The notes below the pieces were generated by a model, which searched no databases, was not told where the DNA came from, and saw only the letters and a program-made list of their open reading frames with translations. A program made the position numbers and the translations under genes. This document shows, one piece after another, positions 21,214 through 31,403 of a stretch of 64,000 nucleotides of DNA. Positions within the stretch are counted from its first letter, which is position 1. Every line of letters starts with the position of its first letter. Origin of the DNA: Candidatus Iainarchaeum sp. (GTDB lineage: Archaea; Iainarchaeota; Iainarchaeia; Iainarchaeales; UBA10219); contig JAGVWE010000005.1 in the NCBI GenBank assembly GCA_018304425.1, positions 153,534-217,533 of the forward strand, written 5' to 3'.

Positions 21214-21267
21214 TCCCTTCAGCGTTAATCCATTGAATTCTGTTTAGGCAAGGGGACTGGGTTGGAA

Positions 21268-24200
21268 ATGATTCGCATCGCGCGCCTCCGTTTGAAGAAC
21301 TTCAAGAGCTTCCGCAAGGCCAACATCCCCTTTCACGAGGGCTTCACCTGCATTGCGGGCAGCAATGCCAGCGGCAAGTGCGTGGTGGGGGACACGAAAG
21401 TCTACCTGTCGGACGGCTCCGCCAAACGCATCGACGAGTTGGTTGAAGCGGCGCTCGCGAAGTCGCAGCAGCCAGAGAAAATGGAGGACGGGTGCTTCAC
21501 CCTCGCCAACCCGGAAAACGTCGAGGTCGCATGCCTTAACACGTGCTCGCTGAAAATGGAGCCCATGCCCGTGCGCTCGTTCATCAAGCGCACGAGCCCC
21601 GCCACGCTCCTGAAACTCACGACGAAAAGCGGGCGCAGCGTCACGGCCACGGCCTACCACCCGGTCTACTCGCTGCAGGACGGAAAGCTCAAGGCATTGC
21701 AGGCCGGCGAACTGAAGGCCGGCACGCGCATCGCGGTGCCGCGGCGCCTCGTCAAGGAAACGCCGGACGGTTTTTTCCGGGAGCTGATTGAAGCGGTCGC
21801 CGAGGAAGACAACCTGTATGCGCCGAATTACGGAGAGTACCGCGAGATTGCGCGCAAGTGGCTGAAGGAAAACGGCCTGACGCAGAAAGCGGGGGCGGCG
21901 CGCACCGGCATCCCTTACCTGGCCTTGAAGTCGTTGCTGGACGGCCAGGCCATGAAGCTGGCATACTTGTTCAGGTTGCTGAAGGCCGCAGGCCACGAAG
22001 CAAAAGAAATAGCCTGCCTGGTTCCGATGGCAAAGGGCAAGACCGGCGCGAAGGAAGTGGTCATTCCCTGGCATAACTCCAAGAAATTCGCGCGGCTGCT
22101 GGGGTACTTGTTCGCGGAAGGCCGGAACTCGACGAACAACCAGGTGTGGTTCACCAACGGCACGCCAGAAATCGTGGAAGACTATGCGAGCCTGTGCCGG
22201 CAGACCCTGGGCATCGAACCATTCGTGAAAAAATACAAGCCGAACGCCTGGGACGCCATCCTGTTCTCGAACCCCGCCAGCCTGTTCCTGGACAAGTTCG
22301 GGTTATGCAGGGGCAAACGCACGAAGCACAAGCGGTTGAACGAATTTTTCATCAGGCACGCGTCGCCTGAAGAGCTGGCGGAGTTCCTGAACGGCTTGTA
22401 TTGCGGCGACGGTTACGTGACTGGCAACACCGTTGAGCTGACCAGCGCGAGCCGGGAGCTGGCTTTAAGCGTGCAACGCCTCCTGCTGATGCTGGACATT
22501 CCGGGGCGCCTCAAGCAGCGCACCAAGCATGCGACCAACACGGGCCGGAGCGGCATCTATTGGAGTGTGAGCGTATTCGGCCAGGAAAACCTCCGGAAAT
22601 TCAACGAGAAAATCCGGCTCGTGCACGAGGCGAAGCGACGAACGCTGGAAAGCGCGGTTGCCGAGCCGCGACGGATCCATTCCAATGTGGACCTCATTCC
22701 GGGGTTGCAAGGCGTTATCCGAGAAACCTGCCAGGTGCTGGGTTCGCACCCCATGCGCAAAACCGACCGCTATCCGAAGCTCCAAGCCTATGCGAGGAAC
22801 CTGTGCGAGGTCAGCCGGCACGGCCTGCAGGAGGTCATCGAAAGGGAGTTCGCTCCCTTGGCGGTCGCGTCCCCGGAGAAGCTGGCCGGCCTCCGGCTGC
22901 TGGCGGAATCGGATGTTCTGTGGGACGAAATCGTGTCCATTGAAGCCTTGGAATCGGCGGAAGAATGGGTGTACGACCTGTGCATCGACGAGCACCACAA
23001 CTTCGTGGCCGACAATGTGTTCGTGCACAACAGCAACATCCTGGACTCCATCCTGTTCGCCTTGGGCGCCACGAGCCTCAAGATGCTGCGGGCCTCGCGG
23101 TTGACCGACCTGGTGAACCATGACGCGGACGAGGACTATGCGAAGGCCGAGCTGGTGCTGAATGAGAACGGCCAGGAAATCGAGGTCAAGCGGCTGATTG
23201 ACAAGAAGGGGCGCGGCGCGGTCAAGCTGAACGGGAAGAAGAAGAGCCTGGATGAGGTCACGGCCTACCTCGAGGAGCTGGGCCTACGGGCCAGCGGCCA
23301 CAACATCGTTGTCCAGGGAGACATAACCAAAATCATCGAGATGAACCCCAAGGAGCGGCGACAAATCATTGACCGGGTCGCGGGCCTCCAGGAGTTCGAG
23401 GAAAAAAAGGAGGAAGCGCTCAAGAAGCTGGAGAAGGTCGAGCAGAAGGTGCGCGAGGTCGGCATCGTCTTGAAGGAACGCGAGCTGTACCTGGGGGAAC
23501 TGGAAAAAGAGCGGGCGCTGGCCCTGAAGTTCGAGCAACTCAACACCGAGTTGAAGCAGTCGAAGGCCACGATTTTGGCGCTGGAGATAAAGAAGGTCAA
23601 GGCCGAGTTGGCGAGCGCGGAAAAAAAGCGGGAGAGCCTGCAGAAGCAGATTGACCGCCTGGCCAGGGAAAAAGAGGGGTTGGCCGAGGAGGGCCGCAAG
23701 GCAGGGGAAAAATTGGAGGAACTGACCCGGAAACTCTTGGAGGCCAGCCAGAAGACCTATTCCGGCATCGGCCGCGAAATCGAGGAAAAAAAGGCGGAAG
23801 CCCGCGTCCTCCGCGAGCGACTGGCGGGTTTGAACCAGCGCCTGCAACAGGATTCCCTGGCCCTCCAGCAACGGGTGGACCAGGCCAAGAACCTGGCCAA
23901 GACCGCGGGCGAGCGGGAGCGGGAACTGCACACCGCGCGGGACAAGCTTCAGGGACTCAGCGAGTCGCTCAAGCAATTGCAGGGCCTGATTGAAGCCAAG
24001 TCCAAGACGGTTTCCGCCAAGAGCGGGGCGTTGAAGGCCAAGGAAGGCCAGATCGAGGGGTTGAAGGCGAGGGCCTTGGAGCACAAGGAGGCCTTGATGG
24101 GCACGCACGGCGAAATCGCGTGGGCCGAGAACCTCCTGGCCTCGCGGGAGCACTCCATTGAGGCCGTGGAAAAGGAGAACGCGGCGTTGCACAAGAAGCT

Positions 24201-25959
24201 GGAGGAGAAGGGCGAGCTGTTGAAGCGGCTCCGGGAACTCGAGAAACGCAAGGACCACGAGCAGGCCTTGTTGAAGAAGGAAGCCGAGCTGGAGAAGGCC
24301 TTGGAGGACATCAGTTACTCGAAGAACCGCATCGAGGGCCTCCACGAGGAGATGGCGGCCCTGCAGAAGGCGAAAACCTCTTGCCCGGTCTGCGAGAACG
24401 AGTTGACCGGGGAGCGGAAGGACAAGTTGCGCGCGAAAAAGGAGCGCGAGAAGGACGAGTTCGAGGCCCGCATCCAGGAAAAGCACGCCTTGCGCGTGGA
24501 AATCGCGCGCGAGAAGGACGAGTTGCGGCACACCCTCAACGAGATAATCAAGTTGCGCGCCCAGCTCGAGGACGTGGACGAGCTGAAGAAGAAGCTGGAG
24601 GACAACCGCAAGCGCGTGCTGGAGTTGACCGCGGAATTGAAGAAGGTGGACTTGCCGGGCCTCAAGGCCAGGGAAAAAGAGCAGCAGCACGAGCTCGAGC
24701 GCGTGGAACGCGAGTGCTCGCTGGCCGTGAAGGGCCTGGAGAACATGCAGGAATCCGCGGAGAACCTGGCGTTCAACCAGTTGATGGAGAAATTCAACGA
24801 AGCCAACGCCGAGCACGCGGAGCGGCAGGAGCGGTTGCTCAAGCTGGAAAGCGAGTTGAACAATGCCAGGGAGGCCAGGGAGCGGCTGGGCGGCGAGGCC
24901 AAGGCCCTGGAAGGCCAGGTAAAGGGGTTCGGCGAGCAGCGGATGGAGAACGAGCGCGCCCTCCAAGGCATTGAAGGGGAACTGGCGGAGAAGCAGCTGG
25001 AAATGGAGAAGTCCCGGCAGGAAACCGGGTTGATGGAGCAGGAAAAGCAGCGGGTGTCCGCGCGGGTGCACGCGGTGGCCGGCGAGAAAGGCGAACTAGA
25101 GGGAAGGATTTCCGGGCTGGAACGGGAACTCAACGAGTTCAATCTCGAGCAGTCGCGGAACGAGGTCCGAATCGTCGACCTGGAAGAGGAATTCAAGCCC
25201 TTCGCGTCCATCGAATTGCTGAAGGAAGCCGAGCTGCCCGCCCTGCGGAGCCGCCTGCCGAAAATCGAGGCCGAACTCGACAAAATCGGGGCGGTCAACA
25301 TGAAGGCCATCCAGAGCTATGAAGACTACAAGAAGGAAGTCGAGGACGTGCGTGGCAAGGCGGCCGTGCTCGAAGGGGAGCGGAAGGCCGTGCTGGAAAT
25401 GATTGACAAGATCGAGGTCAAGAAACTCAACGTGTTCATGGAGTGCTTCAACAAGGTCAGCTATTTCTTCGGCGAACTCTACAAGAGCGTCTTCCAGAAG
25501 GAGGGAAGGCTGGGCTTGTCCGATGCCGTGAACCCCTTGGCAGGCGGCCTCCTGATCCAGGCCAAGTACAAGGAAGACAAGATGAAGAGCCTGGACGAGA
25601 TGTCGGGCGGGGAAAAGTCGTTGACGGCGTTGGCGTTCCTGTTCGCCATCCAGCAATACCAGCCCTCGCCCTTCTATATCTTTGACGAGATTGACGCGGC
25701 CCTGGACAAGGAGAACTCGGTGCGTGTGGGCCTGATGATCCAGCAGGTGGCCCGGAAAAGCCAGGTCATCAGCATCACGCACAATGATGCAGTCATCAAG
25801 CTGGCCGACCAGCTCATCGGCGTGGCCCTGAACAAGCAGAAGAGCAGCGTGGTGGGGTTGAAGCTCAAGGGCGTGCTTTCGGCCGGTGGGGTCTTGGGCG
25901 GCGGGGAGAAACCCGACGAGGTCAGCGACGAGGAAGGCGCGGAAGAGCTCTCCGCGTAG
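21268..25959 (+). CDS. SMC-type ABC ATPase with Rad50-like zinc hook, interrupted by an intein
   Basis: 1563 residues, 1012 after removal of the 551-residue intein. The head is SMC: LRLKNFKSFRKANI, Walker A GSNASGK/SNILDSILFALG split by the intein, VVQGDITKIIEMNPKERR, signature SGGEKSLTALA and Walker B FYIFDEIDAALD. Long coiled coils join it to residue about 488 of the spliced protein, where CPVC followed by ENELTGE takes the place of the roughly 150-residue SMC hinge. CPxC is the zinc-hook motif of Rad50. No hinge motif occurs elsewhere in the coils. DNA-bridging or condensation is expected; no scpA, scpB or mre11 is nearby. ATG 21268 gives the exact SMC N-terminus (TTG 21262 is in frame). 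Confidence 0.88.
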   Translation: MIRIARLRLKNFKSFRKANIPFHEGFTCIAGSNASGKCVVGDTKVYLSDGSAKRIDELVEAALAKSQQPEKMEDGCFTLANPENVEVACLNTCSLKMEPMPVRSFIKRTSPATLLKLTTKSGRSVTATAYHPVYSLQDGKLKALQAGELKAGTRIAVPRRLVKETPDGFFRELIEAVAEEDNLYAPNYGEYREIARKWLKENGLTQKAGAARTGIPYLALKSLLDGQAMKLAYLFRLLKAAGHEAKEIACLVPMAKGKTGAKEVVIPWHNSKKFARLLGYLFAEGRNSTNNQVWFTNGTPEIVEDYASLCRQTLGIEPFVKKYKPNAWDAILFSNPASLFLDKFGLCRGKRTKHKRLNEFFIRHASPEELAEFLNGLYCGDGYVTGNTVELTSASRELALSVQRLLLMLDIPGRLKQRTKHATNTGRSGIYWSVSVFGQENLRKFNEKIRLVHEAKRRTLESAVAEPRRIHSNVDLIPGLQGVIRETCQVLGSHPMRKTDRYPKLQAYARNLCEVSRHGLQEVIEREFAPLAVASPEKLAGLRLLAESDVLWDEIVSIEALESAEEWVYDLCIDEHHNFVADNVFVHNSNILDSILFALGATSLKMLRASRLTDLVNHDADEDYAKAELVLNENGQEIEVKRLIDKKGRGAVKLNGKKKSLDEVTAYLEELGLRASGHNIVVQGDITKIIEMNPKERRQIIDRVAGLQEFEEKKEEALKKLEKVEQKVREVGIVLKERELYLGELEKERALALKFEQLNTELKQSKATILALEIKKVKAELASAEKKRESLQKQIDRLAREKEGLAEEGRKAGEKLEELTRKLLEASQKTYSGIGREIEEKKAEARVLRERLAGLNQRLQQDSLALQQRVDQAKNLAKTAGERERELHTARDKLQGLSESLKQLQGLIEAKSKTVSAKSGALKAKEGQIEGLKARALEHKEALMGTHGEIAWAENLLASREHSIEAVEKENAALHKKLEEKGELLKRLRELEKRKDHEQALLKKEAELEKALEDISYSKNRIEGLHEEMAALQKAKTSCPVCENELTGERKDKLRAKKEREKDEFEARIQEKHALRVEIAREKDELRHTLNEIIKLRAQLEDVDELKKKLEDNRKRVLELTAELKKVDLPGLKAREKEQQHELERVERECSLAVKGLENMQESAENLAFNQLMEKFNEANAEHAERQERLLKLESELNNAREARERLGGEAKALEGQVKGFGEQRMENERALQGIEGELAEKQLEMEKSRQETGLMEQEKQRVSARVHAVAGEKGELEGRISGLERELNEFNLEQSRNEVRIVDLEEEFKPFASIELLKEAELPALRSRLPKIEAELDKIGAVNMKAIQSYEDYKKEVEDVRGKAAVLEGERKAVLEMIDKIEVKKLNVFMECFNKVSYFFGELYKSVFQKEGRLGLSDAVNPLAGGLLIQAKYKEDKMKSLDEMSGGEKSLTALAFLFAIQQYQPSPFYIFDEIDAALDKENSVRVGLMIQQVARKSQVISITHNDAVIKLADQLIGVALNKQKSSVVGLKLKGVLSAGGVLGGGEKPDEVSDEEGAEELSA
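21379..23031 (+). mobile_element. Intein with LAGLIDADG homing endonuclease in the SMC Walker A motif
   Basis: 551 codons inserted between the Walker A lysine codon and the serine that follows. It starts CVVGDTKVYLSDGS (splicing block A, Cys1), has TAYHPVYSL (block B histidine), LLGYLFAEG and FLNGLYCGDGYV (paired LAGLIDADG motifs with the acidic residues kept), and ends VYDLCIDEHHNFVADN-VFVHN (blocks F/G, His-Asn). The +1 residue is Ser. All splicing residues are intact, and so are the endonuclease acids, suggesting an active homing element. A short HTH-like region lies between the splicing and endonuclease parts. Confidence 0.93.
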
Positions 25960-26049: not shown

Positions 26050-28098
26050 TTGGAATTGATTTTGCTCGTGTTCGCAATCAGCGTGCTATCCGTCGGGTTC
26101 GCGGGGTATCTCGCCAATTACGTCCTGAAGAAGGACACGGGGACCCCGAAAATGCGGGAAATCAGCAACGCCATCATGGAGGGCGCGAACGCCTTCCTCA
26201 AAAGGCAGTACAAGACCATCGCGGTCATCTGCGTGGTGCTTGCGGTCCTGATCATGGGCGCCTATGCCTTGACCGGCAAGGTCGACTTCGGCCTCAAGAC
26301 CGCGGTTGCCTTCGTGTTCGGGGCCTTTTGCTCCGCGCTGTCGGGTTACATCGGCATGTGGATTTCCATCCGCGCCAACATCCGCGCGGCCTCCGGCGCG
26401 CAGCGCAGCCTCAACGAGGCGTTGACCATTGCCTTGCGCGGCGGAGCGGTGTCCGGCATCATCATCGTGGCCTTGTCCTTGCTGGGCGTGAGCGCACTCT
26501 ATTACTTCTACGGGCTCTCCGCGCCCCTCACGGAAGTGCCTTTCCTGATCGTGGGCTTTGGATTTGGGGCCAGCTTCGTGGCCTTGTTCGCGCAACTCGG
26601 CGGCGGCATTTACACGAAAGCGGCTGACGTCGGCGCGGACCTGGTCGGAAAAGTCGAAGCCGGCATCCCGGAAGACGACCCCAGGAACCCCGCCGTCATC
26701 GCGGACCTCGTCGGAGACAACGTCGGCGACTGCGCGGGAAGGGGGGCCGACTTGTTTGAAAGCACGGCCGCCGAAAACATCGGGGCCATGATCCTTGGAG
26801 TGGCCTTGTTTCCCGTGTTCGGCGTGAACGGCATCGTGTTCCCCCTAGTGGCAAGGGCCTTCGGCTTGATCGCCTCCATTATCGGGATCATGGCCGTGAA
26901 GGCCAGGGAAGACGAGGACCCCATGAACGCCTTGAACCGCGGCTATCTGATTACCTCGGTGCTGGCCGCCATTGCCTTCTACATCGCCACCCAGTGGCTG
27001 TTGGGCAACATCCTGTTCTTCTACGCCGGCCTCGTAGGCATCCTGGCCAGCATTGCCTTCGTCTACATCACCATCTACTACACGGACCAAAAGTATGGGC
27101 CCGTTAAGTCGATTGCGGAGGCCTCGAAGACCGGGCACGCGACCAACATCATCGCGGGATTTGGGGTGGGACTCGAATGCGTGGCGGCACCGGTCATCGT
27201 CTTGAGCGCGGCCCTCATGGGCTCGTTCATGATTGGCGAGCTGTCCGGGTATGCGAACGGCGGCTTATACGGAACGGCCATCGCGACCATGGGCATGCTT
27301 TCAACGGCTGCCTTCGTCTTGGCCATGGACACTTTCGGCCCCATCACGGACAACGCCGGGGGAATCGTGGAGATGAGCAAGAGCCCGGAAAAAGTCCGGA
27401 AGATCACGGACCGGCTGGACGCGGTCGGCAACACCACCAAGGCCCTGACGAAGGGCTACGCGGTGGGCTCGGCCGGCCTCGCGGCGTTCCTGTTGTTCAC
27501 GGCCTACATGGATGAAGTCACGAAACTGGTGGGGCACCCCATGACGGTGAATCTCGCCAAAGTGGACGTGTTCGTGGGCGGGTTGCTGGGCGCCATGCTG
27601 GTGTTCCTGTTCAGCAGCTACGCCATCAAGGCCGTTGGAAAGACCGCGGGCAGCGTCATCGAGGAAGTCCGGAGGCAGTTCAGGGAAATCCCCGGCCTCA
27701 TGAAGGGAAAAGCCAAGCCCGACTACGCGAAATGCGTGGACATCTGCACCACGGCCGCCTTGAAGGAAATGGTGTTGCCAGGGCTTCTCGTGGTTTTCAT
27801 GACCCTGGCCGTAGGCTATGTCCTCAAAGCCGAGGCCGCGGCGGCTTTCCTGATGGTGGGAACCATGAGCGGAATCCTCATGGCCTTGCTGCTCAACACG
27901 GGTGGAGGCGCCTGGGACAACGCCAAGAAATACATTGAAACCGGTGCCTTTGGCGGCAAGGGAAGCGAAGCCCACAAGGCCGCCGTAACCGGGGACACGG
28001 TGGGGGATCCCTTCAAGGACACGGCAGGCCCGAGCCTGCACGTGTTAATCAAGCTCTTGGGAACCCTTACCCTGGTGCTCGCGCCCCTATTCATATAG
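26050..28098 (+). CDS. hppA: Membrane-bound proton-translocating pyrophosphatase
   Basis: 682 residues with about 16 transmembrane helices. The substrate-binding blocks GGGIYTKAADVGADLVGK, DLVGDNVGDCAGRGADLFES and GDTVGDPFKDTAGPS are intact. GNTTKALTKG has lysine at the position that makes family members potassium-independent, so this is predicted to be the K+-independent H+-pumping type. It hydrolyses cytoplasmic PPi to build a membrane gradient. The start is TTG, supported by GGAGGGG just upstream and by the protein beginning MELILLVFAISVLSVGFAGY. Confidence 0.94.
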   Translation: MELILLVFAISVLSVGFAGYLANYVLKKDTGTPKMREISNAIMEGANAFLKRQYKTIAVICVVLAVLIMGAYALTGKVDFGLKTAVAFVFGAFCSALSGYIGMWISIRANIRAASGAQRSLNEALTIALRGGAVSGIIIVALSLLGVSALYYFYGLSAPLTEVPFLIVGFGFGASFVALFAQLGGGIYTKAADVGADLVGKVEAGIPEDDPRNPAVIADLVGDNVGDCAGRGADLFESTAAENIGAMILGVALFPVFGVNGIVFPLVARAFGLIASIIGIMAVKAREDEDPMNALNRGYLITSVLAAIAFYIATQWLLGNILFFYAGLVGILASIAFVYITIYYTDQKYGPVKSIAEASKTGHATNIIAGFGVGLECVAAPVIVLSAALMGSFMIGELSGYANGGLYGTAIATMGMLSTAAFVLAMDTFGPITDNAGGIVEMSKSPEKVRKITDRLDAVGNTTKALTKGYAVGSAGLAAFLLFTAYMDEVTKLVGHPMTVNLAKVDVFVGGLLGAMLVFLFSSYAIKAVGKTAGSVIEEVRRQFREIPGLMKGKAKPDYAKCVDICTTAALKEMVLPGLLVVFMTLAVGYVLKAEAAAAFLMVGTMSGILMALLLNTGGGAWDNAKKYIETGAFGGKGSEAHKAAVTGDTVGDPFKDTAGPSLHVLIKLLGTLTLVLAPLFI

Positions 28099-28173: not shown

Positions 28174-28944
28174 ATGGAAGAAAAACAACGCTCCTTGCTC
28201 GTCATCCTGATTGCGGCCCTGATTTTCGGGTTGGGCGCCTTCTCCGGCCCCACGTTCTTGGGCCTCTTGTCGGGCGAAAACGGTTTGGGGAGTCCGGGCC
28301 TGCCAGCCATCCAGTCCAGCGGGCAGACCGCCAGCATCAACATCGTGGCGGTAACCAGCCAGGGCGGCGGAGAGGTGTCCAAGGGAGTCGTCGAGTTGGT
28401 GCCGGGAAAGGGCCGCGTGTTAATCAACACCAACCCCTTTGTGGAACCGGACACGCAGTACTCGTTTGAGACCGCTGCCCAGGTAGCCGAAGGGGTCACG
28501 GGAAAGAGCTTGAAGAACGTGGACATCATTTTCACGGTCGAAGAATCCAAGGCCAAGCTGGTGGGCGGTCCCTCCGCAGGCGCGGCCTTCACCGTGGCCA
28601 CCATCGCGGCCGTGGAAGGCCGGAAAGTGCGGACCGATGCCGCCATCACGGGAACCATGGACAAGACCGGCCGGATCGGCCCCATCGGCGGCGTGCTCGA
28701 GAAAATGGTGGCCTTCGGCGAACTCGGCGGCAAACTCTTCCTGGTACCCAAGGGACAGGGCACCGTCAACTACCTGGTCGAGGAACCGGCCGGCGAGGGA
28801 AGGCAGGGGCCCTACCTCATCAAGCGGTTCCGCATGACGCAAAAGGCCCTGAAACTCGATGACTACGCCAAGGAACATTTCGAGGGAATGAAGGTAGTGG
28901 AAGTAGCGCACGTCGATGAAGCCCTGGCGCTGCTGGTACAATAG
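28174..28944 (+). CDS. Membrane-anchored Lon-type (S16) serine protease domain protein
   Basis: 256 residues. One N-terminal transmembrane helix (LLVILIAALIFGLGAFSG) is followed by a stand-alone Lon protease domain with catalytic serine in GGPSAGAAFT and catalytic lysine in IGGVLEKMVAF. There is no AAA+ domain, unlike LonB. The orientation of the helix would place the protease outside the cytoplasm. It converges on a larger S16 protein whose end lies eight bases away. Confidence 0.82.
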   Translation: MEEKQRSLLVILIAALIFGLGAFSGPTFLGLLSGENGLGSPGLPAIQSSGQTASINIVAVTSQGGGEVSKGVVELVPGKGRVLINTNPFVEPDTQYSFETAAQVAEGVTGKSLKNVDIIFTVEESKAKLVGGPSAGAAFTVATIAAVEGRKVRTDAAITGTMDKTGRIGPIGGVLEKMVAFGELGGKLFLVPKGQGTVNYLVEEPAGEGRQGPYLIKRFRMTQKALKLDDYAKEHFEGMKVVEVAHVDEALALLVQ

Positions 28945-28952
28945 GTCACGCG

Positions 28953-31403
28953 TTATTTTTTCGGCTCTGGCTTCTTTTTGGGGAGTGGCTTGACCTGCTT
29001 CCGCACCGAGCGCTGGACTTCCGACCAATCGCTTTCAACTCTCCCTACTGCCTGCCTTGCCTGGTCGGCTGCCACAACCTGGTCAATGGACTCCTCTTCG
29101 GCCAGGGCCTCGTACAACTGCTTGACCTTGGCATTGTATTCGTTGGTGAGTTTCCGGAAGTCCTCGGGGGAGATGCTGCGCTGCTTGAGGCTCCGCCGCA
29201 GGTCCCTGGACTTCATGTCAAACAACAAGAGGTCGGCGCGCAGCTTGTCCGAGGCAAAGGACTCCTCGGTCTTGGCTTCCCGCATGCGGAGCAGCCTCCG
29301 CAGTTGCTCGGACAACCGGCCTGACTCGGAGAGGTACTCGTCCTGGGAGAGCCTGCCCCTTGAAAGCCTTTCCTCGATTTCCCGCTGCTTTTGCTTGACC
29401 CCCTTTATTTCCTCGTACACCGAGTACTTGACGTCCGACTTCCGGGCTTTCAGTATCTTGAGCAGCAACACCAGCAGCACGATGAACAACACGGTGGGCA
29501 GGAGGAAAAACATGAGGTACCACTTGGTCTGATCGGTTTTCACGACCTCGTCGACGGCCGACTCCGAGCCCGTGTAGGGCTTGGCGGCGTTCTTTTCATA
29601 GAACTCGCTGACCTCTTCCACGGTCTTGAAGAGGCTCTCCGCCAACATGGCCAGGCTCAACCCGTTCTTCAGGGAGGAAAGGGCATCGCTTTTGTGGTTC
29701 AATTCCTTGTAGTAAACGGCTTCCTCCAGGTAATAGCGGGCGTGGTCGAGGTAGAGGTTGGCCCAGACATGCCGGTACTTGGAGTTGGCAATGGCCGAGC
29801 CCAAGTCGGCCAGTTTCTTGCGGAGGCTGGCCTCGAGCTTGACGGCATCGTCTTCCTTGGCCAGGCGCTTGCCCTCGATCAAGGCCTGCGCCGAGGCCGC
29901 GTTGAACAGGGCCGAGAGGCTCCAGCCACGCTTGAGTTCCTCCCGCGCCGAGGCAATCCGCCGCTCAATGTCCTCGATGTCCTCGCCCTTGAAAACCGTC
30001 AACCCGTTTTCCGCCTTCACCAGCAGGTCCTGCACGCGTTCCACGAAGTCAGGCAAGGGCTTCACCTTCTTCTGGGAGACCTTGGCCGCCTCGAAGAATT
30101 CCCGGGCCACCAGCAGCCAGGCCCTTGCGGACTCGAACTTGTAGAGGGCGTCGATGACGGCTTCCTTCTTGTCGGCCGAGCCCCCCGCCGAGACCACGAT
30201 GGTCTGGCCGCGGGACAACTCGTTCAAGGTGGTTTCGGCCCAGCCCAGCCGCTGCTGCGCGGAAACCATCCACTCCAGGCGGTCAACGGGCATGAACTCG
30301 GACAATTGCTTCTTCAAGTCCACGAGTTCCTGCTTGAGCAAATCCACTTTCAGGTCGAAAACCGTGGAATCGTCGGACAACAGCGAGGGGTTTTCCGCGA
30401 TGTCCTTGATGAGCATGGCGTTGACCCTTGCCAGGAATGCGAAGTTCGCGCTGCTGTACAGGTAGCCCTGGTCCAGGAGGATATCGGCCGTTTTGAGGTT
30501 CTTTTCCGCGTTGTTGAGGCTAGCCACCATCCGGCCGATGATGGAAACGTCTTCAATCAGGGTCGAGGAAAGCGCGTTCCGCGCCTCCTTCATGAGCTGC
30601 TTGGTTTCCTTCAAGTGCTTCCGGGTAATCTCCTTCATGGGCAGCAGTTCCTCTGCCGGCGTGGTCGGCTTTGGGACGAATTCGGGGGGCTCCTTTTCCG
30701 CCAACTCCTTGATGTCAATCTGCGATACATCCGTGTATGCGTACTTCAGGACGTCGTCCAGGGTGGAGGCCTCGACCACGTAGAGCCCCCACTTGTCCTT
30801 CGCGTACTGAATGAGGTTGATGGATTCGACGCCCGACTCGAGTTTCTCGATGCGGCGGGCTTCCCCCGAGGGAATCATGAACAGCTTCATGCCCCCGTCC
30901 TTCGCTGCCCTGGCCTTTTCGAAGACCCCTCCCACCGTGCCCACGATTCCGTCCTCGGAAATCGTGCCCGTGATGCTCACGTCTCGGGGAACGGTTTTTC
31001 CCTGCAGCAGGGCCGCCACCATGTAAGCCATGGCCGCTCCCGCCGAGGGCCCCTCGACCACGGCAGCGGTTGAACCAATCGAGAACTTGTAGTCGAACTT
31101 CTCCCATTCAGGAGAATACTTTTTTGCGGCCTGGACCGCGGCCTTTTCAGCGCTCTGCGTGGTCGTGCCCACCAGGGGGTTGACGGAAGTCCAGACCTTT
31201 CCGGTGCCGGGAACCAGTTCCAGGTAGAGGTCGGCTGAAAGCCCCTCGCCGTCGCCCGTGACGGCAAAAATCTTCATGGCCCCGCTGCGCACCTCGCCCT
31301 GGGACGCGGGCACGGCTTCCACGGCCCAGGCAAGCTGGCCAAGGCTGAACAGGAACAGGAAAACCAGTGCCACCTGCTTATTGAAAGCCAACCATTCACC
31401 CAA
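28953..31403 (-). CDS. Secreted/membrane S16-type serine protease with coiled-coil region (COG1750-like)
   Basis: 816 residues. A signal peptide (VALVFLFLFSLGQLAWAVEA) precedes a Lon-type protease domain with serine in EGPSAGAAMAYM and lysine in VGGVFEKARAA (residues about 40-230). A long helical region spans about 260-590, then one transmembrane helix (FFLLPTVLFIVLLVLLLKIL) and a charged cytoplasmic tail of about 190 residues ending in KPLPKKKPEPKK. The TTG start at 31403 is 31 bases from a minus-strand TTTAAAT box (31431-31437). Extracytoplasmic protein processing is inferred; no ATPase is attached. Confidence 0.82.
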   Translation of the reverse strand: MGEWLAFNKQVALVFLFLFSLGQLAWAVEAVPASQGEVRSGAMKIFAVTGDGEGLSADLYLELVPGTGKVWTSVNPLVGTTTQSAEKAAVQAAKKYSPEWEKFDYKFSIGSTAAVVEGPSAGAAMAYMVAALLQGKTVPRDVSITGTISEDGIVGTVGGVFEKARAAKDGGMKLFMIPSGEARRIEKLESGVESINLIQYAKDKWGLYVVEASTLDDVLKYAYTDVSQIDIKELAEKEPPEFVPKPTTPAEELLPMKEITRKHLKETKQLMKEARNALSSTLIEDVSIIGRMVASLNNAEKNLKTADILLDQGYLYSSANFAFLARVNAMLIKDIAENPSLLSDDSTVFDLKVDLLKQELVDLKKQLSEFMPVDRLEWMVSAQQRLGWAETTLNELSRGQTIVVSAGGSADKKEAVIDALYKFESARAWLLVAREFFEAAKVSQKKVKPLPDFVERVQDLLVKAENGLTVFKGEDIEDIERRIASAREELKRGWSLSALFNAASAQALIEGKRLAKEDDAVKLEASLRKKLADLGSAIANSKYRHVWANLYLDHARYYLEEAVYYKELNHKSDALSSLKNGLSLAMLAESLFKTVEEVSEFYEKNAAKPYTGSESAVDEVVKTDQTKWYLMFFLLPTVLFIVLLVLLLKILKARKSDVKYSVYEEIKGVKQKQREIEERLSRGRLSQDEYLSESGRLSEQLRRLLRMREAKTEESFASDKLRADLLLFDMKSRDLRRSLKQRSISPEDFRKLTNEYNAKVKQLYEALAEEESIDQVVAADQARQAVGRVESDWSEVQRSVRKQVKPLPKKKPEPKK

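Follow-up and report, generated by a model that had tools for sequence, protein, structure and literature searches.

Can a cell organise its chromosome with an SMC protein that has no hinge? The hinge is regarded as a defining and essential part of SMC proteins, with proposed roles in DNA binding, in loading and as a gate. The question is raised by a gene in a 64,000-nucleotide stretch of DNA (hereafter the window) from Candidatus Iainarchaeum sp., where a first-pass annotation described an SMC-type ATPase head joined to a Rad50-type zinc hook. We consider it very probable that this gene encodes the chromosomal SMC ATPase of a member of the Diapherotrites (Iainarchaeota), and that a short zinc hook of the Rad50 type has taken the place of its hinge, a domain of ~140 amino acids.

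An SMC gene split by an intein

The open reading frame at 21262-25959 on the plus strand is an SMC gene interrupted by an intein (Table 1). An in-frame ATG is located at 21268, and a TTG upstream of it is also in frame, such that the SMC protein after splicing comprises 1012 amino acids counted from the ATG or 1014 counted from the TTG. The intein splits the Walker A motif (GSNASGK/SN), and the sequence GKSN occurs at the same place in intein-free relatives; excision of the intein would be required to restore Walker A. A wrong spliced length is ruled out by the intein-free relatives, which are equally long and match in sequence across the junction, and a chimeric assembly is ruled out by conservation throughout the order to which the genome belongs. 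On re-reading the open reading frame, we recovered all of the SMC motifs and the 1012-residue length that the first-pass annotation had reported.

Inteins at Walker A recur in SMC genes of this group, with examples at three further loci (L016, L017 and L073). The intein of L016 is small (~190 amino acids) and shares the insertion point of the window intein, which carries an endonuclease domain of the LAGLIDADG type.

Directly downstream of the SMC gene, a plus-strand gene (26050-28098) encodes a 682-residue membrane protein with the motif GDNVGDCAGRGADLFE, looking from its sequence like an ion-pumping pyrophosphatase. Two convergent genes follow, at 28174-28944 on the plus strand and 28953-31403 on the minus strand, each encoding a Lon C-terminal protease domain (PF05362); an AAA part was found in neither.

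Table 1. Features of the SMC gene, in window coordinates
Feature	Position	Strand	Evidence
SMC gene, intein-containing; sole SMC-type chromosome-organisation gene detected in the genome	21268..25959	+	SMC_N PF02463, E 1.7e-57, spliced protein
N-extein, terminating in Walker A GSNASGK (21358-21378)	21268..21378	+	
Intein, 551 aa, with LAGLIDADG homing-endonuclease domain, within Walker A	21379..23031	+	Pfam Intein_splicing 8e-19, LAGLIDADG_3 1.7e-20; boundaries CVVGD...FVHN
C-extein: remainder of N-head, both arms, hook and C-head	23032..25956	+	
Ascending coiled-coil arm (approximate limits)	23407..24381	+	Arm-length measurement; continuous helix in a relative's model
Non-helical turn at the arm apex	24379..24408	+	AlphaFold2 model of segment 24172-24624, helices 29-69 and 80-131
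Zinc-hook motif CPVC, occupying the hinge position at the apex; spliced residues 488-491	24382..24393	+	Rad50 zinc hooks 6zff and 1l8d are the top matches of the apex profile
Descending coiled-coil arm (approximate limits)	24394..25404	+	Arm-length measurement; a relative's model
ABC signature SGGEK	25603..25617	+	Sequence; alignment with relatives
Walker B / D-loop DEIDAALD	25684..25707	+	Sequence; alignment with relatives

Absence of the hinge

A Pfam search for the hinge domain (PF06470) gave no match in the source genome, and 52 of the 53 genomes of the order are likewise without a match, the sole one being in genome G061. Because this search also misses some bacteria of its own control set, we applied a second test with a locally built hinge HMM. 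The scores are bimodal. Nearly all hinged archaeal SMCs tested reach 95-225 bits (some Asgard SMCs are low), and all 43 tested hook SMCs of the order remain below 7 bits, with the window protein at 1.2 bits. The failure of both models to detect a hinge agrees with the initial claim that no SMC hinge segment is present, and with no hinge domain recognised, the protein is classed here as a hinge-less SMC variant rather than a canonical SMC. A genome-wide search of the source genome (1.48 Mb) found no hinged SMC elsewhere, although most of the genomes are MAGs, this one being 92.55% complete, so that a second SMC may have escaped detection.

AlphaFold2 predicts a helix-turn-helix hairpin for the apex segment of the window protein, with a mean pLDDT of 89.6 in the monomer model. 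The turn falls at CPVC, where local confidence is lower (~56). The monomer model of a full-length relative (L090) has a head and long helices that are interrupted for 13 residues at its CPIC, and it contains no globular hinge. A hinge fold in mid-protein, which the first-pass annotation had named as the observation incompatible with its reading, is thus seen in none of these models.

The two arms were measured as the distances between Walker A and the apex and between the apex and the signature. Median values are 457 and 402 residues for the hook SMCs, 475 and 393 for their hinged class-mates, and 462 and 404 for the SMC of Micrarchaeota; the corresponding values for Rad50 of the order are 320 and 236. 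The arms therefore retain SMC length, which indicates that only the apex was exchanged. The SMCs of Aenigmatarchaeota and Bipolaricaulota, which appeared short in our scan, proved to be hinged proteins with short arms rather than hinge-less ones.

A Rad50-type hook at the arm apex

Among the genomes of the order whose SMC can be read through the apex, 50 of 57, representing 15 families, have CPxC midway along the arm, and this short hook occupies the place of a hinge of ~140 amino acids. An alignment of 15 sequences shows no variation at C488, P489 and C491, which stand almost alone in a poorly conserved arm. Recurrence of CPxC at the same midpoint, together with the invariance of these three residues, argues that CPVC in the window protein does not occur there by chance. 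The proteins of a few relatives are shorter, at 831 amino acids (G002) and 773 amino acids (G074).

When a profile of the apex was compared with the PDB, the best two matches were the zinc hooks of P. furiosus Rad50 (6zff, 4.3e-13; 1l8d, 6.7e-13), with CPVC aligned. The RAD50 hook 5gox came next (0.018), and an unrelated coiled coil first appeared at E 0.035. A control profile of the arm, made from the same proteins, matched generic coiled coils, with no Rad50 hook among the matches listed. A 54-residue hook HMM derived from the SMCs of the order gives a median of 36 bits for the Rad50 hooks of the order and 46.5 bits for the P. furiosus hook, and reaches a maximum of 13.9 bits on 239 arm windows. 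The Pfam model Rad50_zn_hook (PF04423) matches below threshold (20.8 bits against a cut-off of 24.3; residues 473-518 in the 1014-residue count), and a Foldseek search with the apex model, a method that is weak for coiled coils, returns 1l8d_B at rank 4 (probability 1.00, TMt 0.73, E 0.11). The description of CPVC at the coiled-coil midpoint as the zinc-hook form of Rad50 is thus borne out by its distribution, by the invariant residues and by the apex profile. Because the likeness to Rad50 hooks reaches beyond CPxC, these sequence comparisons suggest that the Diapherotrites hook was probably derived from a Rad50 gene by recombination, the segments concerned being short and flanked by coiled coil.

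The remaining seven of the 57 SMCs comprise four proteins (family f3) with neither hook nor hinge, two (f4) without CxxC, and one (f13) that is hinged. The f3 proteins (L053, L064, L065 and L066) are ~930 amino acids long with a shorter arm region. They group with the hook family f20 in the head tree (support 98/90), and have likely lost the hook secondarily. The f4 SMCs (L076 and L077, from G007 and G008) are 1084 amino acids long, lie on a long branch, and contain neither a match to the hinge HMM nor CxxC; their ~100 extra apex residues are possibly a degenerate hinge. A tree of the N-head does not resolve the placements of f4 or of the hinged relative G061 (f13).

Proteins such as those of f3 bear on an alternative reading of the window protein, according to which the hinge was simply lost, CPVC serves a structural or redox role rather than a dimerising one, and the subunits pair only through heads, arms and kleisin. 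SMCs with neither hinge nor CxxC do exist, in f3 and also among the Pacearchaeota and spirochaetes considered below. However, C-P-C is nearly the sole conserved feature of the arm, CPVC is located at the predicted turn, and the flanking pattern matches that of dimeric Rad50 hooks, all of which make a hinge loss of this kind unlikely.

An SMC head and genes for its probable partners

To place the head, we used a tree of 103 rows and 385 columns that includes seven Rad50s of the order and leaves out ASRP sequences. The SMCs of the order form one group (support 100/100) that is joined to the hinged class-mates (100/98) within archaeal SMC, and the seven Rad50s are separate (100/100). NCBIfam models rank in the same direction: SMC_prok_A (TIGR02169) is the best by far at 525 bits, yet under its curated cut-off of 729, and is followed by SMC_prok_B (387 bits), Rad50 (116 bits) and ASRP (101 bits). 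Searched with the full-length protein, the PDB yields SMC heads as the closest relatives (7.7e-90), ahead of Rad50 (4e-15). The head was therefore correctly recognised as that of an SMC at the outset, and the contrary outcome then envisaged, a head grouping within Rad50, is not observed. What fails is the proposal that such a hybrid links the SMC and Rad50 branches. The protein sits well within the archaeal SMCs and is surrounded there by hinged relatives; the hook is thus a derived replacement rather than a relic of an SMC-Rad50 intermediate.

ScpA is found in 47 of the 53 genomes of the order and ScpB also in 47 of the 53, the source genome being included in both sets. The source genome and nearly all of its relatives in the order also encode a separate Rad50, which in the source genome has 689 amino acids and its own CPVC hook. 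A metallophosphoesterase open reading frame that begins FSDTHLGYSF, with family model support for Metallophos only, is probably Mre11. The remark that no kleisin or mre11 gene is adjacent is accurate locally but misleading, as ScpA, ScpB and the probable Mre11 are encoded elsewhere in the genome; the search proposed in the first-pass annotation recovers all of these as well as Rad50, and no hinged SMC. Since ScpA and ScpB are present and the genome has a Rad50 and a probable Mre11 besides, the role of the chromosomal SMC most likely falls to the hook SMC, with repair left to a distinct complex.

These data also weigh on two readings that take the protein out of the SMC clade. Archaea-specific SMC-related proteins (ASRPs, namely coalescin and Sph) are likewise archaeal SMC-superfamily ATPases that combine SMC-type heads with zinc hooks, and are described as a distinct head clade (PMC9389158). 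Membership of the window protein in this group is very unlikely, because its score of 101 bits with the ASRP model (cut-off 300) is close to the 93 bits reached by a spirochaete SMC and far from its 525 bits with SMC_prok_A, its head nests with hinged archaeal SMCs in the tree built without ASRP sequences, and the genome encodes ScpA and ScpB. More doubtful still is the reading as a repair ATPase, Rad50 itself or similar to it, that acts with Mre11 and has come to resemble SMC in its head by convergence. The zinc-hook apex, with its profile matches to Rad50 hooks, and the lack of an adjacent kleisin gene speak for it, but descent from Rad50 is refuted by the placement of the head in archaeal SMC by tree and profiles. 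In addition, the arms are of SMC length, the genome encodes ScpA and ScpB, and it already holds a Rad50 with a hook of its own and a probable Mre11.

A natural counterpart of an engineered SMC

Rad50 hooks dimerise by chelation of zinc through CXXC motifs from two subunits (PMC5344682). Two subunits of the hook SMC would most likely join at the apex with one zinc shared by two CPVC motifs, and dimerisation through shared zinc rather than a hinge, as originally supposed, thus stands as the most likely consequence of a hook apex. The heads would engage with ATP and be bridged by ScpA with ScpB, and the resulting condensin-like SMC-ScpAB ring would organise the chromosome, presumably through a ring or loop-extrusion function. 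The retained arm length fits this view of a hook-dimerised ring.

The window protein resembles the SMC of Smc-ScpAB condensin (TIGR02169) in head sequence and phylogeny, arm length, occurrence in single copy and the presence of ScpA and ScpB in the genome. It differs in having a short CPxC hook and no hinge, and in a score that falls under the TIGR02169 cut-off. With the Rad50 zinc hook (PF04423; P. furiosus 1l8d and 6zff) it shares CPxC in the turn of a helical hairpin and matching flanks, whereas its hook belongs to a protein with the arms and head of an SMC, in a genome with a separate Rad50.

The same architecture, in which a Rad50 hook stands for the hinge on SMC head and arms, has been built in B. 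subtilis. Cells with this Smc(Zh) chimera, whose hinge is replaced by the P. furiosus Rad50 hook, grow normally, and arm geometry is the dominant constraint in the engineered protein (PMC5344682). Unlike this laboratory construct, the Diapherotrites hook SMC is natural and has been kept across an order. The reverse swap, of a MukB hinge into fission yeast Rad50, is also functional (PMC6969161). Oceanic actinobacterial SMCs similarly combine an SMC head with the lack of a hinge, but they are without CXXC and belong to other organisms (PMC12153180). We found no paper on a naturally hooked protein of the SMC clade in a literature search that most subscription journals lay outside, and a prior description is possible.

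Whole archaeal lineages here run their sole detected SMC hinge-free, while keeping the head, the arm length and ScpAB. As natural counterparts of Smc(Zh), these proteins make hinge-specific loop-extrusion models testable, and whatever hooked SMCs can do needs no hinge. Dimerisation modules also appear to be exchangeable between branches of the SMC superfamily.

Hook SMCs in Pacearchaeota and other hinge-less SMCs

Pacearchaeota also have SMCs, of ~960 amino acids, with CPxC at the midpoint; in a sample of 50 loci from a single order, 41 carry it. The other nine consist of one protein with CFIC and eight shorter proteins without CxxC. These eight (L239-L246; 795-824 amino acids) also have no hinge, in parallel with f3. 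PF06470 has no match in seven Pacearchaeota genomes, and ScpA has matches in all seven.

Seven hook SMCs of Pacearchaeota group together in the head tree (100/100), in the midst of hinged Woesearchaeota and Nanoarchaeota, and a single hook clade of Pacearchaeota and Diapherotrites, a grouping tested after the tree had been seen, is rejected (AU p 1.2e-77). Given this rejection, the Pacearchaeota swap appears to be independent of that in Diapherotrites, and the exchange seems to have occurred naturally on at least two occasions. The Pacearchaeota hook resembles Rad50 hooks weakly beyond CPxC. Hook-less Pacearchaeota are partly scattered among hooked ones in a quick tree, and the existence of hook-less members in both lineages suggests that the hook was secondarily lost in each. 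With f3 and the eight sampled Pacearchaeota lacking CxxC, the hook is evidently dispensable in some lineages.

Taken as a whole, we think it probable that two DPANN lineages independently swapped the hinge of their sole SMC for a zinc hook, at least one of them copying it from Rad50, and that some descendants then lost the hook. If so, SMC-ScpAB can do without the hinge fold and, in places, without any recognisable apex domain. The least credible account makes the hook ancestral and the hinge a later acquisition, with Diapherotrites and Pacearchaeota retaining an SMC-Rad50 intermediate: both lineages belong to the DPANN archaea, for which a deep position among archaea is sometimes proposed, but well-supported branches place each of the two hook groups within hinged SMCs, the nearest kin are hinged class-mates, and a single hook clade is rejected by the AU result above.

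Spirochaetota provide a further set of unusual SMCs. Seven proteins (L102, L103, L108, L115, L121, L162 and L167) of ~945-1070 amino acids score below 2 bits with the hinge HMM and contain no CxxC, and two of these genomes have no PF06470 match and do have ScpA. Judged by sequence, they look like another hinge-less SMC lineage.
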